From: Pseudokineococcus lusitanus | Lineage (GTDB): Bacteria; Actinomycetota; Actinomycetes; Actinomycetales; Quadrisphaeraceae | DNA length: 64,000 nucleotides | Reading direction: 5' to 3' | Assembly (NCBI RefSeq): GCF_003751265.1 | Contig: NZ_RJKN01000005.1 | Span: 248,001 to 312,000, forward strand | Shown here: positions 12,559 through 23,394 of the stretch, in pieces | How the letters are laid out: each line of letters opens with the position of its first letter | How positions within the stretch are numbered: the first letter of the stretch is position 1 | Notes under the pieces: model-generated | Seen by the model: the letters and a program-made list of their open reading frames with translations, nothing else | Told to the model about the DNA's origin: nothing | The model's database searches: none | Program-made: the position numbers and the translations under genes

Positions 12559-13164
12559 GTGAGCGGCTGGCCGGTCGAGCTCCGCAGCGGCGACGTCACG
12601 CTGCGGCCGCTGCGCCGCGGGGACCGGACGGCGTGGGCGCGGCTGCGCTCGGCCAACGCCGGGTGGCTGGAGCGGTGGGAGGCGACGCCGCCCGCCGGGT
12701 CGAGCGCGCCGCCGTCCTTCCCGGCGATGGTCCGCGAGCTGCGGACGCAGGCGCGCCAGGGCCACGCGCTGCCCTTCGTCGTCGAGCACCACGGCCGGAT
12801 GGTCGGCCAGCTCACCGTCGCCGGGATCACGTGGGGCTCGCTGCGGTCCGGCACGGTCGGGTACTGGGTGGACCGCCGCGTCGCGGGCCGCGGGATCATG
12901 CCGACCGCCGTCGCGCTCGTCACCGACCACTGCTTCCGCTCGCTCGGCCTCCACCGCGTCGAGGTCAACATCCGCCCGGAGAACGCGCCGAGCCTGCGCG
13001 TCGTCGAGAAGCTCGGCTTCCGCGACGAGGGCCTGCGCCGCGCGTACCTCCACATCGACGGCGCGTGGCGCGACCACCGCACCTTCGCCCTCGTGGCCGA
13101 GGAGGTGCCGGAGGGCCTGCTCGCCCGCTGGCTCGCGGCCCGCCCCCCGCACCGGTCCTCGTAG
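12559..13164 (+). CDS. GNAT acetyltransferase, RimJ/RimL type
   Basis: The 201-residue product has the RimJ/RimL plan: LRPLRRGDRTAWARLRS at the start, VGQLTVAGITWGSLRSGTVG in the core, YWVDRRVAGRGIMPTAVAL (the acetyl-CoA pyrophosphate loop, RxxGxG/A type), then RVEVNIRPENAPSLRVVEKLGF and the YLHIDGAWRDH end. Relatives acetylate N-termini of ribosomal proteins; the substrate here is unknown. The gene follows mog by 19 bp, and in actinobacteria it often closes the galU-mog cluster. GTG 12559 is chosen because homology starts right after it. Confidence 0.9.
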   Translation: MSGWPVELRSGDVTLRPLRRGDRTAWARLRSANAGWLERWEATPPAGSSAPPSFPAMVRELRTQARQGHALPFVVEHHGRMVGQLTVAGITWGSLRSGTVGYWVDRRVAGRGIMPTAVALVTDHCFRSLGLHRVEVNIRPENAPSLRVVEKLGFRDEGLRRAYLHIDGAWRDHRTFALVAEEVPEGLLARWLAARPPHRSS

Positions 13165-13237
13165 CCTCCCGTCGACCCGGGCGGCCCCCGAGCGGGTCGT
13201 CGTGGCCTGTCGTCGCAGGGGAGCGCCTCGCGACGCA
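13165..13237. other. Start of a 405-bp gene-free stretch
   Basis: From the GNAT stop to 13569 I find no convincing gene. The first 70 bases hold nothing recognisable. The middle is the six-unit array described next. The last 85 bases carry the promoter of the following membrane protein (TACCGT at 13557-13562). Confidence 0.6.
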
Positions 13238-13483
13238 CCCTGTCGGCACTTCGTCGCCGAAGTGCGCCTTCGGGCGCCCTGTGTAGGCAGTCCGTCGCCG
13301 AAGTGCGCTGTGAGGCGCGCTGTGTCGGCAGTTCGTCGCCGAAGTGCGCCCTGGGGCGCACTGTGTCGGCAGTTCGTCGCCGAAGTGCGCCGTGGGGCGC
13401 GCTGGGTCGGCAGTTCGTCGCCGAAGACCGGCCGGGGACGCTCCCTGCCGGCACTTCGTCGCCGAAGACCGCCGCGGGGGAGG
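13238..13483. repeat. Six tandem 41-bp units, each with a CTTCG-tcgc-CGAAG dyad
   Basis: Unit starts are 13238, 13279, 13320, 13361, 13402 and 13443, exactly 41 bp apart. Units 3 and 4 differ at 2 of 41 positions; units 1, 5 and 6 are more diverged at their ends. Each carries TTCGTCGCCGAAG or a one-base variant; in unit 1 the dyad is perfect (GCACTTCG, four bases, CGAAGTGC). Units 5 and 6 have CGAAGACC instead of CGAAGTGC. The period is not a multiple of three, and frames differ from unit to unit, so it is not a coding repeat. It sits between the GNAT gene and a leaderless membrane-protein promoter about 75 bp downstream. Confidence 0.9.
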
Positions 13484-13569: not shown

Positions 13570-14631
13570 ATGGACGGCGGGGCGACGGCGGCGCTGCTGG
13601 TCCTGGCGGTCCTCCTCGTCGGCGTGCCGCGCATGAGCCGCCGCCGCGCGGAGCTCGGCAGCTGGCACGCCGCCGGCCGCGGCGACGCCGAGACGGCCCC
13701 GCGCGCCGTCCCCCTCGCCTCCCGCACCCCCCTGCGGCGTGCCCTCCCCGGCCGCCGGGACACCGCCGCGCGCGAGGTGGCGACGCCGGCCGTGGCCGGG
13801 GCGACGGTCCTCGCCCCGGGGACGGGCCTGCGGCGCGCGACGCCCGGCGCGCGGGTGCTCGTCCGGCGCTCCGCCGTCCCGCGCCCCCGGTGCGCGCCCG
13901 GCTCGAGCAGCCGCCCCGTCCTCGCGGGCCGCCCGGCGACGCCGCTCGAGGGCTCGTCGGACCTCATCGTCGTCGCCGGCACGGCCGTCGAGACCCCCCT
14001 CGAGGCCCCGTTCGAGGCGCCGGTCGCGACCACCGTCGCCGCCGTGCCGGCCGTCGACGACGTCCGCGCGTCCGACGTCGTCCCCGCCCGCCCCGCGGGG
14101 ACGGCCCCCGGCGTCCCCGCCCCGCGTCGTGCGCCGTCGTCGCGCACCGCGGCCCCGGCGGGCGGCGCCCGGCCCGTCGGCCGCGTCGACGGGCCCGTCC
14201 GCCACCTCGTGCGGCTCGGCACCACCGCGGCCGCCGCCCTCCTCGTGGGCGTCCTCGCCGTGCTCGGTGTCGTCCCCGCCCCGGCCGCCGCGCTGCTGCC
14301 GCTGCTCCTCGCCGCCGACGTCGTCGTGCTCCGCCGCCGCGCCGTCCGCACCCGGGCCGCCGCCCGCGAGCGGGCCCGTCGCGCCCGGTCGGCCGCGCCG
14401 CCCGCGGCGGTCGCCGACGTCGCCGCGCCCGCCCCCGCCCCCGCCGCGGCGCCGGCCCCCCGGACCGGCGCCGTCACCGGGCTCCTGCCCTCGCTCGCCG
14501 ACCTCCGCGCCGCCGCCGCGGCCGACGCCGCCCCGGGCCTGCGCGGGCCCGCCACGGCCCCGCGCCCGGCGCCGGTCGAGGAGCCCGCCCGCCCCGCGCG
14601 TCCGGCCCGGCGGCGCCGCCGCTCGGCCTGA
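13570..14631 (+). CDS. Membrane protein with long Ala/Pro/Arg-rich loops (unknown function)
   Basis: A 353-residue protein that I do not recognise by function. Residues 3-18 form one TM helix. Residues 20-205 are a basic, Ala/Pro/Thr-rich stretch with little order. Residues 215-260 form two closely spaced TM helices, followed by RRRAVRTRAAARERARRARSA. The tail is Ala/Pro-rich with one ordered piece (TGLLPSLADLRAAAAADA) and ends in a poly-Arg cluster. Proteins of this type stand behind the GNAT gene in other actinobacteria. The ATG is preceded by a leaderless -10. Composition-driven overlap frames make the interior hard to check, but the frame and stop are clear. Confidence 0.75.
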   Translation: MDGGATAALLVLAVLLVGVPRMSRRRAELGSWHAAGRGDAETAPRAVPLASRTPLRRALPGRRDTAAREVATPAVAGATVLAPGTGLRRATPGARVLVRRSAVPRPRCAPGSSSRPVLAGRPATPLEGSSDLIVVAGTAVETPLEAPFEAPVATTVAAVPAVDDVRASDVVPARPAGTAPGVPAPRRAPSSRTAAPAGGARPVGRVDGPVRHLVRLGTTAAAALLVGVLAVLGVVPAPAAALLPLLLAADVVVLRRRAVRTRAAARERARRARSAAPPAAVADVAAPAPAPAAAPAPRTGAVTGLLPSLADLRAAAAADAAPGLRGPATAPRPAPVEEPARPARPARRRRRSA

Positions 14632-15704: not shown

Positions 15705-15720
15705 CCCGTCGTCCGACGAC

Positions 15721-15817
15721 AGCAGGCGCCTGCTCCGGCCCCCGACGCCCTCGGGGACGCGGACGGGCGCCTGCTCTCGTCCCGGAGGGGGCCAGGGGCG
15801 AGGGCAGGCGCCTGCTC
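15721..15817. repeat. Three palindromes GCAGGCGCCTGC about 41 bp apart
   Basis: The core is a perfect 12-bp palindrome. Copy 1 is at 15722-15733 (extended to 14 bp), copy 2 is an imperfect form at 15764-15775, copy 3 is at 15804-15815; each is followed by TC. The spacing is 42 and 40 bp, close to the 41-bp period of the array at 13238, though the sequences are unrelated. They lie between two convergent genes and may act as a bidirectional terminator or a protein-binding array. Confidence 0.75.
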
Positions 15818-15849
15818 GCGTCGGGTGGTGGGGCGCGTCGGGGCAGGGC

Positions 15850-19818: not shown

Positions 19819-19995
19819 CCCTGCGTGATGGGCGATGACTCGTCGTCACGGAGCGCTGGCGCTCAACGCCTCCGACGGACCGTCGGTTCCGCGGATCGGT
19901 GAGATTGATCCGGTCGTGACCCTCCCGCAACGGGCACTTGGGTGCTTATGGTCACCGACGGCGCGCCCGACCCGGACGCCGACCTGAGGAGACCC
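19819..19995 (+). promoter_or_regulatory. Promoter and leader region of the M6 protease
   Basis: A possible -10 is TATGGT at 19947-19952, giving a leader of about 35 nt. A small inverted repeat, GGATC with GATCC, lies at about 19893-19911 upstream. The region is less G+C-rich than the rest. GAGGAG at 19985-19990 is a clear ribosome site for ATG 19996. Confidence 0.45.
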
Positions 19996-22398
19996 ATGCG
20001 CAAGCTGACCTGTGGAGCGGTGGGGATGGCGCTCGGCGCCGGCCTGCTGGCCACCGCCGCCGTCCCGGCCACCGCCGCCCCGGACACCGGCCTCGGCACG
20101 ACGGCCGCGACGGCCACCCCGTCCGCCGCGCCGCTCGACGACCGGCCCCACCCCCTGGAGGAGAAGCGCCGCGCGCTGCGCGAGACCGCCATCACCGGTG
20201 TGCTCGAGGGCGAGCTCACCCCCCAGCGCATCGGCGGCAGCACCGTCGTCAAGGTCGGCGACGAGGCCGCCCCGGCGGCCGCCGCCACGACCACCCAGCG
20301 CCGCGGCGAGCGCGCGGCCGCCGCCCAGGGCCAGTACGTCGAGCTCGCGCGCGAGAGCACCGACAAGATCTTCGTGATCCTCGCCGAGTTCGGCGACGAG
20401 CGGCACCCGGACTACCCGGACGCCGACACCGACCCGGACACCGCCGGCCCGACGCGCTTCGACGGACCGCGGCACAACGAGATCCCCGAGCCCGACCGCA
20501 GCGTCGACAACTCGACGATCTGGCAGGCCGACTTCGACAAGGCCCACTACGAGGACATCTACTTCGCGGACGACGAGGGCGACGAGTCGCTCAAGACGTA
20601 CTACGAGACCCAGTCCTCGGGCCGCTACAGCGTCGACGGCACGGTCAGCGACTGGGTGCGTGTCAAGTACAACGCCGCGCGCTACGGCCGCGAGGACGCC
20701 TCGACGTGGAACCTCATCCAGGACGCCGTCAACCAGTGGGTGGCCGACCAGGAGGCCGCGGGCGTCAGCGACGCGGACATCGCCGCGCAGCTCGCCGAGT
20801 ACGACCAGCAGGACCGCTACGACTACGACGGCGACGGCGACTTCAACGAGCCCGACGGCTACATCGACCACTTCCAGATCGTCCACGCGGGCGGCGGCGA
20901 GGAGGACGGCGACCCGACCTACGGCGAGGACGCCATCTGGTCGCACCGCTGGTACGCCTTCGGCACCGACCAGGGCAAGACCGGTCCGGAGGAGAACAAG
21001 CTCGGCGGCGCCCAGATCGGCGACACCGGCGTGTGGGTCGGCGACTACACGATCCAGCCGGAGAACGGCGGCTACTCGGTCTTCGCGCACGAGTACGGCC
21101 ACGACCTCGGCCTGCCGGACAACTACGACACGGCGGGCGGCAACAACAACGTCGAGTACTGGTCGCTCATGGGCCAGAGCCGTCTCTCGGGGGCGGACGA
21201 GCCCATCGGCTCGCGCGCCGGCGACCTCGGCGCCTGGGAGAAGCTGCAGCTCGGCTGGCTCGACTACGAGACCGTCACCGCCGGCGAGAAGCGCTCCATG
21301 ACCCTCGGGCCGCAGGAGTACAACACCGAGGACGCCCAGGGCGTCGTCGTCGTGCTGCCCGACAAGGAGGTCACCACCGAGCTGGGCGAGCCCGCCGCCG
21401 GCGACCGCCAGTGGTGGTCCGGCTCGGGCGACGACCTGGCCAACACCCTCGGCGCGACGGCCGACCTCACCGGTGCGACGTCGGCGACGCTGTCGATGCA
21501 GTCCCGGTGGTCCATCGAGGAGGAGTACGACTACCTCTACGTCCAGGCCTCGACCGACGGCGGCCGCAACTGGACGTCGCTGGCCGGCACGGCCGACGGC
21601 GAGGACTTCGGCACGGACGCCTCCGGCTCGCCCGCCATCGACGGCGAGCAGGAGGAGTGGGTCGACGTCGAGGTGCCCCTCGACGCCTACGTCGGCGCGC
21701 CCGTCGAGCTCCGGCTGCTGTACCGCACCGACGGCGGCCTGGCGCTGCCCGGCTTCTTCGCCGACGACATCACGCTGACCGTCGACGGGGAGGTCGTCCT
21801 CGCGGACGGCGCGGAGGACCCCGACGCCTCGGTCCTCGAGCTCGACGGCTTCACGTCCGTGGGCGCCACGTCGACGGAGGAGTACGACAACTTCTACGTC
21901 GCCGGCCACCGCAGCTACGTCTCCTACGACCAGTACCTGCGGACGGGCCCGTACAACTTCGGCTGGGCCTCCACCCGCCCGGACTGGGTCGAGCACTTCC
22001 CGTACCAGACGGGCCTGCTCGTCACGTACTGGGACACCTCGCAGGTCGACAACAACGTCAGCCAGCACCCCGGTGAGGGCCGCAACCTCATCGTCGACGC
22101 CCACGCGCGGCCGATGGCCAACATCGAGGGCGACTACTGGCGGACGCGCATCCAGTCCTACGACGCGCCCTTCTCGACGCGGAAGGCCGACAGCTTCACC
22201 CTCCACGTCGACGGGAAGCCGAGCTACGTCCGCGGCCAGGCCGCGGCGCGGACGTTCGACGACACGAAGAAGTACTTCTACGACGAGTTCCCCGCGGGCG
22301 GCACCAAGCTCCCGGCGACCGGCACGAAGATCCGTGTCGCGTCCGAGGACGGCACGTCGATGAAGATCCGCGTCACCGGCCCGACCGTCACGGACTGA
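19996..22398 (+). CDS. Secreted M6-family (immune inhibitor A-like) zinc metalloprotease
   Basis: An 800-residue exported protease. Residues 1-28 are a signal peptide ending AVPATAA-AP. A propeptide of about 100 residues follows. The catalytic domain starts around FVILAEFGD, and the zinc site is HEYGHDLGLPDNYD near residue 365 (HExxH with Asp/His downstream). A MAM/LamG-like beta-sandwich domain follows with DYLYVQASTDGGRNWTSLAG, a pattern typical of InhA C-terminal parts. A DxDxDG calcium-like loop, DYDGDGDFNEPDGYID, lies near residue 275. InhA proteases degrade host or environmental proteins. Codon use and composition fit the neighbours but it is richer in Asp, Tyr and Asn. It starts at ATG 19996 behind GAGGAG. 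Confidence 0.93.
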   Translation: MRKLTCGAVGMALGAGLLATAAVPATAAPDTGLGTTAATATPSAAPLDDRPHPLEEKRRALRETAITGVLEGELTPQRIGGSTVVKVGDEAAPAAAATTTQRRGERAAAAQGQYVELARESTDKIFVILAEFGDERHPDYPDADTDPDTAGPTRFDGPRHNEIPEPDRSVDNSTIWQADFDKAHYEDIYFADDEGDESLKTYYETQSSGRYSVDGTVSDWVRVKYNAARYGREDASTWNLIQDAVNQWVADQEAAGVSDADIAAQLAEYDQQDRYDYDGDGDFNEPDGYIDHFQIVHAGGGEEDGDPTYGEDAIWSHRWYAFGTDQGKTGPEENKLGGAQIGDTGVWVGDYTIQPENGGYSVFAHEYGHDLGLPDNYDTAGGNNNVEYWSLMGQSRLSGADEPIGSRAGDLGAWEKLQLGWLDYETVTAGEKRSMTLGPQEYNTEDAQGVVVVLPDKEVTTELGEPAAGDRQWWSGSGDDLANTLGATADLTGATSATLSMQSRWSIEEEYDYLYVQASTDGGRNWTSLAGTADGEDFGTDASGSPAIDGEQEEWVDVEVPLDAYVGAPVELRLLYRTDGGLALPGFFADDITLTVDGEVVLADGAEDPDASVLELDGFTSVGATSTEEYDNFYVAGHRSYVSYDQYLRTGPYNFGWASTRPDWVEHFPYQTGLLVTYWDTSQVDNNVSQHPGEGRNLIVDAHARPMANIEGDYWRTRIQSYDAPFSTRKADSFTLHVDGKPSYVRGQAAARTFDDTKKYFYDEFPAGGTKLPATGTKIRVASEDGTSMKIRVTGPTVTD

Positions 22399-22403
22399 GG
22401 ACG

Positions 22404-22449
22404 CCGCACCACCGCACCACCGCACCACCGCACCACCGCACCACCGCAC
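22404..22449. repeat. 8-bp microsatellite, CCGCACCA x5.75
   Basis: Five exact copies at 22404-22443 are followed by CCGCAC. The run starts 6 bp after the M6 protease stop and ends just before the terminator hairpin, so it is in the 3' UTR. Confidence 0.9.
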
Positions 22450-22521: not shown

Positions 22522-23394
22522 TCAGCCCTCGACGTGCGCGCAGAACCGGTCGAGCGCGTCGGCGAAGACCTCCGGCTGCTCGGAGTGCACCCAGTGCCCC
22601 GCCCCCTTGACCCGCAGCAGCCGGACGCGGGGGAAGAGCTCCTCCATCCGCGGCCGGTCGGCGTCCATGACGTAGGTCGAGGTGGCGCCCGACACCCACA
22701 GCACCGGGCCGTCGTAGCGCGCACCCGGCGGCGGGTCGGGGAAGCCGCGCAGCGCCTCGAGCCCCTCCTCGATGACGGGGAGGTTGAGCGCCCAGCGCCA
22801 GCCGGGCGCCCCGGGGGCGGGGGAGGGCACGCGCAGCAGGCTCTGGAGGAGGAAGCCGCGGACGGCGTCGGACGGGACGGCGGCGCGCAGCGCGTCGTGC
22901 GCGTCCTCCCGGCTCGTCAGCGCGGCGAGGTCGAGGCCCCGCATCGCCCGGACGAAGTCGCGGAAGGGCGTCGCCTCCTCGTCCGGGTCGTCGGTCCGGC
23001 CGCCGCTGGAGGGGTAGGTGACGGGGGCGACGTCGACGACGACGAGCGCCCGCAGGAGGTCCGGCCGGCGCAGCGCGAGCTGCATGGCGACCTTGCCGCC
23101 CATGGAGTGGCCCACGAGGACGACGGGGTCGTCCGGGGCGCCGAGGGCCTCGAGCTCGGCGCCCAGCGTCGCGGCCATGGCGACGTAGTCGACCTCCTCC
23201 GTCCACGGCGACGTCCCGTGGTCCGGCAGGTCGAGCGTCGTCACGCGCCGTGGGCGGGCGGCGAGCCGGCGCGCGACCGCGCTCCAGTTCTTGCCCTGCC
23301 CGAAGAGGCCGTGCACGAGCGCGACCCGCGGGCCCGCCCCGCCCGTCGTCCGCGCCGCCAGCCGCCGCCCGTCCACCTGCTCGCCCGTGCTCAC
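22522..23394 (-). CDS. Alpha/beta-fold hydrolase (YbfF-like esterase)
   Basis: The 290-residue product has VALVHGLFGQGKNWSAVARRLA (oxyanion loop HGLFG) near residue 25, the nucleophile elbow VLVGHSMGGKVAMQLAL near residue 95, and the catalytic His in VKGAGHWVHSEQPEVFAD near residue 265. The arrangement and the GxNWxxxA start fit the YbfF/EPHX-type small-ester hydrolases. The substrate is unknown. GTG 23394 is the only good start; a weak -10 (TGGGCT) lies about 6 nt upstream. It is divergent from the lipoprotein gene with 56 bp between starts. Confidence 0.9.
   Translation of the reverse strand: MSTGEQVDGRRLAARTTGGAGPRVALVHGLFGQGKNWSAVARRLAARPRRVTTLDLPDHGTSPWTEEVDYVAMAATLGAELEALGAPDDPVVLVGHSMGGKVAMQLALRRPDLLRALVVVDVAPVTYPSSGGRTDDPDEEATPFRDFVRAMRGLDLAALTSREDAHDALRAAVPSDAVRGFLLQSLLRVPSPAPGAPGWRWALNLPVIEEGLEALRGFPDPPPGARYDGPVLWVSGATSTYVMDADRPRMEELFPRVRLLRVKGAGHWVHSEQPEVFADALDRFCAHVEG

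Follow-up and report, generated by a model that had tools for sequence, protein, structure and literature searches.

The systems closest to the repeats described here are the REPs and BIMEs of other bacteria. REPs of other phyla lie between convergent and unidirectional genes, and the phyla listed for tagged REPs do not include Actinobacteria (PMC3733652). In E. coli, BIME-2 elements are bound by gyrase (PMC2817692). Our literature search found no paper on the repeats of Pseudokineococcus that are the subject of this analysis.

The window, a 64,000-nucleotide stretch of the Pseudokineococcus lusitanus genome, contains a tandem array with a 41-bp period (Table 1). A preliminary description made from the letters of this DNA had reported the period, and it is real: identity at lag 41 is 0.834, compared with a mean of 0.299 and a maximum of 0.409 in 2000 shuffles. 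The same description had placed a CTTCG-tcgc-CGAAG dyad in every unit, which holds in exact form (CTTCGTCGCCGAAG) for units 1 and 6 only, the other units having one or two changes (units 3–5 read GTTCG and unit 2 GTCCG). The altered right arm that it noted in units 5 and 6 is present (GAAGACC in place of GAAGTGC), and the outer arms of the dyad GCACTTCGTC-GCCGAAGTGC are likewise intact in units 1–4 and changed in units 5–6. A second dyad core, of the GCACTGTGTC-GGCA... type, is present in every unit, its centre lying 11 bp, or one helical turn, to the left of the CTTCG-tcgc-CGAAG dyad, and this core is the word common to the window array and its sister arrays. Its centres fall at 13244, 13285, 13326, 13367, 13408 and 13449, in steps of 41 bp; the symmetric core model used below scores only some of these six, and all six were obtained by listing. 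A unit thus described comprises a dyad core of ~20 bp and a linker of ~21 bp.

Table 1. Features of the window at and around the 41-bp array (window positions)
Feature	Positions	Strand	Basis or remark
41-bp tandem array	13234–13467	+	TRF: 5.7 copies, 83% matches, without indels
Array unit (rotated), GCACTGTGTCGGCAGTTCGTCGCCGAAGTGCGCCCTGGGGC	13234–13467	+	TRF
Six 20-bp cores of the GCACTGTGTC-GGCA... type	13235–13459	+	Core model and listing of all six
Six copies of the dyad GCACTTCGTC-GCCGAAGTGC	13246–13470	+	Each copy centred 11 bp to the right of a core
GNAT acetyltransferase gene, upstream	12559–13164	+	Pfam PF13302, E=1e-20; gene caller
353-aa gene, downstream, without Pfam family	13570–14631	+	Pfam search; gene caller
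Second 41-bp array, weak, with three copies around GCAGGCGCCTGC	about 15705–15849		Lag survey; between convergent genes

The array begins about 70 bp after the stop codon of the GNAT gene, downstream of which it had been correctly placed, and ends about 100 bp before the start of the 353-aa gene. A coding repeat was rejected, in agreement with the earlier reading, as the array sits between called genes and 41 is not divisible by 3. Elsewhere in the window, an 8-bp unit, CCGCACCA, is perfectly repeated in tandem (5.8 copies, 22404–22449) within the gap between the convergent genes 19948–22398 (+) and 22522–23394 (−).

The window array is very probably one member of a dispersed family of phased, extragenic arrays. 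All four Pseudokineococcus genomes examined, namely that of the window itself (G000) and three congeners (G001, G002 and G003), have arrays with a period of 41 bp (in some cases 42 bp) in many intergenic regions, and diverged sisters of the window array occur in G000 and G002. The core ACYNTGTCGRCA was counted 14, 0, 83 and 3 times in G000, G001, G002 and G003, respectively, compared with 0, 2, 1 and 0 for the reversed pattern, the G000 counts coming from searches and a 464-kb sample and the G001 and G003 assemblies being fragmented drafts that may be missing arrays. A longer core pattern was limited to two of 149 genomes of the order, both from Pseudokineococcus. The symmetric 20-bp core model yielded 178 core centres, and 34 arrays with at least two cores, in about 1.36 Mb, a sample that includes stretches chosen for holding arrays. 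Arrays usually comprise 2–10 cores, and the last copy is often inverted.

The arrays are placed just beyond stop codons. Where both neighbours were called (n=36, with a composition-based gene caller checked only on the window), 18 arrays lie between convergent, 15 between tandem and three between divergent genes; the expected share of gene pairs is about 16% for the convergent and 16% for the divergent orientation, so that convergent sites are in excess (18/36, p=3e-6). In G001, the arrays occupy 12 convergent, eight tandem and no divergent sites (12/20 convergent, p=1e-5). The flanking genes have no common functional theme. Beside the divergent arrays, we found genes for an aldo-keto reductase, BacA, an amidohydrolase, a 5'-3' exonuclease, a hydrolase and YaaA, and no regulator genes.

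These positions bear on the earlier proposals of a local role. Phased dyads in intergenic DNA upstream of a gene start are what an operator or loading platform serving the adjoining genes might look like. The preliminary description had set the array before a leaderless membrane-protein promoter, to which it is not tied. The same family recurs at many unrelated loci, only 3 of 56 arrays overall lie between divergent promoters, and the orthologous site is empty in both G002 and G003, where the neighbouring genes are intact and a homologous gene starts directly after the GNAT gene; this comparison covers G002 and G003, as the G001 contig breaks off too soon. We therefore regard a local operator, platform or promoter element as very improbable, contradicted as it is by the empty orthologous sites and the dispersed family. 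The search that the preliminary description had suggested, of the unit across this genome and its relatives, thus came out in favour of an intergenic repeat family and against a local regulatory array. Its ParB-type or replication-type platform finds no support in the unrelated neighbours, in the location at gene 3' ends and in convergent gaps, or in the several-fold difference in copy number between species.

The core words are largely species-specific, and in one congener, G001, the arrays are built on a nearly unrelated word with the same spacing. This word, GGACTTCGTAGCCTTCTTCC, was first met at an orthologous site, and a search with it revealed a G001-wide family. In the stretches examined, those of G001 having been chosen for the word, TTCGTAGCC has 48 copies in G001 and 0–1 in each other genome; as an unbiased figure, exact whole-genome matches to TTCGTRGCCTTCTT number at least 19 in G001 and none in G000 among the matches listed. 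G000 has one array of the G001-word type (L283). A motif-free lag survey uncovered further cores in arrays, namely CACTTCGGCAGCGAAGTG, GTGGCCACACGTCGCG and the core of the second window array. Several cores have the skeleton GC-N5-G-N-CG-N-C-N5-GC in common, which arises often by chance in this GC-rich DNA, at 56 per 64 kb; this frequency is too high for the skeleton to serve as proof of a common binder.

Comparison of orthologous sites revealed that the same positions carry different words. In the NUDIX-SurE intergenic region, G002 has a six-core array, G003 has a variant core in three copies at 42 bp, G001 has a different core, also in three copies, at 41 bp and G000 has no array, and the flanks of G001 and G003 are about 97.5% identical. 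Matching intergenic regions of G001 (L264), G002 (L076) and G003 (L106) hold a different array core in each species, and one site carries a core of the window's type in G002 and a different core in G000. Three array-bearing intergenic regions that follow one another in G001 match array-bearing regions of G002 that have different cores, and the gene between two of these regions is flanked by arrays on both sides in G003 too, with a third core. Many of these site pairs were chosen for holding arrays, and the three G002 sites lie in a sampled stretch of a contig picked for array matches, so that occupancy rates drawn from them are biased.

The spacing of the cores is far more uniform than their sequence. 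In the window's core family, 124 neighbouring-core centre spacings lie within 40–43 bp, at 41 (96), 42 (23), 40 (4) and 43 bp (1), and the centre spacing stays at about 41 bp across inverted copies; the remaining spacings are period multiples (81 and 82 bp) or values of 11, 30, 31 and 71 bp, to which the second dyad in G000 gives rise. The G001 core family has spacings of 41 (23), 42 (2), 40 (1) and 82 bp (2), the 41-bp value accounting for 23 of 28 same-strand spacings, and its inverted pairs hold one fixed distance. Between arrays, identity is 76% in the cores and 45% in the linkers (33% for shuffled linkers). Because the spacing is nearly constant although the linkers are poorly conserved, we infer that it points to a constraint on length; the fixed period could also partly reflect inheritance within each core family. 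Independently of any motif, the lag survey of intergenic DNA placed at 40–43 bp 9 of 18 matches in G000 (p=4e-7) and, in G002, 6 of 24 (p=0.003); the share in G003, 3 of 20, was not significant. All p-values given here are descriptive, as several cores and site comparisons were examined after the fact. The idea of helical phasing put forward in the preliminary description gains support from the 40–43 bp spacing over weakly conserved linkers, from the inverted copies and from the 11-, 30- and 41-bp offsets in the G000 arrays.

A universal period of 41–42 bp is not supported, since other genera of the family have periods of 36 and 53 bp besides 42 bp, and neither of the two sampled outgroup families has a peak at 40–43 bp. 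In another genus of the family (G011), ~42-bp arrays with the core CCGCAGCCGAGCGCCTGGTTGCGG lie at L105:3955-4060, L102:79-180, L288:9659-9720 and L292:8060-8279. G010 has ~53-bp intergenic repeats around TGACCGAGGTCA at L232:16478-17127 and L234:2887-3480. Within Pseudokineococcus, G002 has runs of a ~15-bp repeat at L194:1400-1720, with GGGCCCTTCCCGCAC before and GGGACGACGGGGCGC after a two-core array.

A serious competing reading, though one we hold to be doubtful, is that the arrays are selfish extragenic repeats, REP-like and without a function for the host, palindromes that spread by unspecified machinery and tandem duplication, take their 41-bp period from copying or common descent and survive beyond stop codons, where insertion harms least. 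Such repeats would account for the uneven copy number of ACYNTGTCGRCA among congeners, the empty orthologous sites of the window array, the species-specific cores at reused sites and the neighbours without functional theme; the several-fold copy-number difference and the empty site are not predicted by a needed function. REPs of other phyla also prefer the same positions (PMC3733652). Against this reading, the REP-type transposase (RAYT/Y1, PF01797) was detected in none of the four Pseudokineococcus genomes, compared with 5 of 14 control genomes, and a RAYT-driven REP was rejected on this ground. Free indel drift should moreover have widened the spacing between linkers of such low identity, and several cores of little or no resemblance have the same period.

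The bias towards convergent and downstream positions would also suit elements acting in RNA, with tandem hairpins serving, where genes converge, as bidirectional terminators or as barriers at mRNA 3' ends. Array sequences are more stably folded than their shuffles on either strand (mean z about −3.9, compared with −2.75 for control convergent regions) and, as both strands can fold, an RNA role may exist. Yet the stems give no sign of compensatory pairing (1073 Watson–Crick pairs versus 1179 in shuffled data, in a test weakened by orientation mixing), and in tandem contexts there is no excess of G-U over C-A (50 and 48, respectively). Gene ends on the array side keep strong hairpins of their own (−32 kcal/mol or better) at least as often as controls do (43% versus 28%), which led us to reject the arrays as intrinsic terminators replacing those of the genes, and at the G001 site L272 the relative G000 has a terminator-like hairpin and no array. 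Terminators, furthermore, do not need a fixed 41-bp spacing. A known RNA family was rejected as well, since no Rfam match over an array reached the gathering score, a sub-threshold match to mir-4433 over one array being recorded. We consider the RNA-level reading distinctly unlikely, and a role at the DNA level is favoured because covariation is absent, the gene ends keep their hairpins and the array-free relative of L272 has one.

As a whole, the best explanation, which we put forward tentatively and at somewhat less than an even chance, is that these REP/BIME-like extragenic palindromic arrays owe their fixed spacing to helical phasing, probably for a dimeric DNA-binding protein. A ~20-bp dyad core is repeated each 41 (or 42) bp beyond stop codons, especially between convergent genes, and the spacing would be held since the cores, four turns apart, must all lie on the same side of the helix. 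A putative dimeric protein, nucleoid-associated or topology-related, might bind neighbouring cores cooperatively at the ends of transcription units, by analogy with gyrase and IHF on E. coli BIMEs. The arrays would arise and be replaced through some copying process, and the core word would shift together with its binder. A protein-bound function taken by itself is a possibility that we also place a little below even. A satellite-like version of this proposal is rather unlikely in our estimate: here the unit length would be fixed by the helix and the word replaced at the same sites between near relatives, implying a fast-changing dimeric binder that loads at transcription-unit ends and manages, for example, supercoiling between convergent genes.

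If the phasing is functional, the arrays mark DNA-organising sites where transcription units end, and genome comparison would allow the binder to be found from the swapping of words among close relatives. If the arrays are selfish, they represent an actinobacterial class of REP-like repeats that spreads independently of the known REP transposase, and their copying and replacement become testable.

The arrays resemble REPs and BIMEs as numerous, regularly spaced extragenic palindromes of 20–40 bp at the ends of convergent or unidirectional genes, in numbers that vary between strains (PMC3733652, PMC2817692), and the many extragenic copies (34 arrays, 178 core centres) and the location both agree with that type. 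They differ in the absence of a RAYT/Y1 transposase and of kept stem pairing, in their mostly head-to-tail order at a fixed 41–42 bp, where REPs in BIMEs alternate, and in a core word that differs between close species; in action they resemble BIMEs at most. As in CGTC-tagged REPs, small palindromes lie near gene ends without a dedicated transposase (PMC3733652), but those REPs form mainly head-head dimers, their head-tail dimers being negligible, whereas in the arrays head-to-tail order dominates and the core lacks the covariation of a paired stem. Among the columns conserved in the aligned 41-bp units, neither a GTAG nor a CGTC tag is conspicuous. With CRISPRs the arrays have in common palindromic repeats at regular spacing; a CRISPR array was rejected, as it had been in the preliminary description, because the intervening stretches are not unique spacers and the linkers within an array are alike (76% identity). 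Among intergenic tandem modules, pneumococcal BOX and mycobacterial MIRU elements (~45–100 bp) vary in number as the arrays do. They have other sequences and unit lengths, and we know of no 41-bp helical phasing or swapped core words in them. We know of no bacterial intergenic repeats in which, as here, the array sequence is replaced at conserved positions while the spacing stays. A parallel, as an analogy only, is eukaryotic satellite DNA, in which a fixed unit length goes with rapidly replaced, species-specific sequence, whereas the arrays are bacterial, short and dispersed beyond genes, with no centromere.
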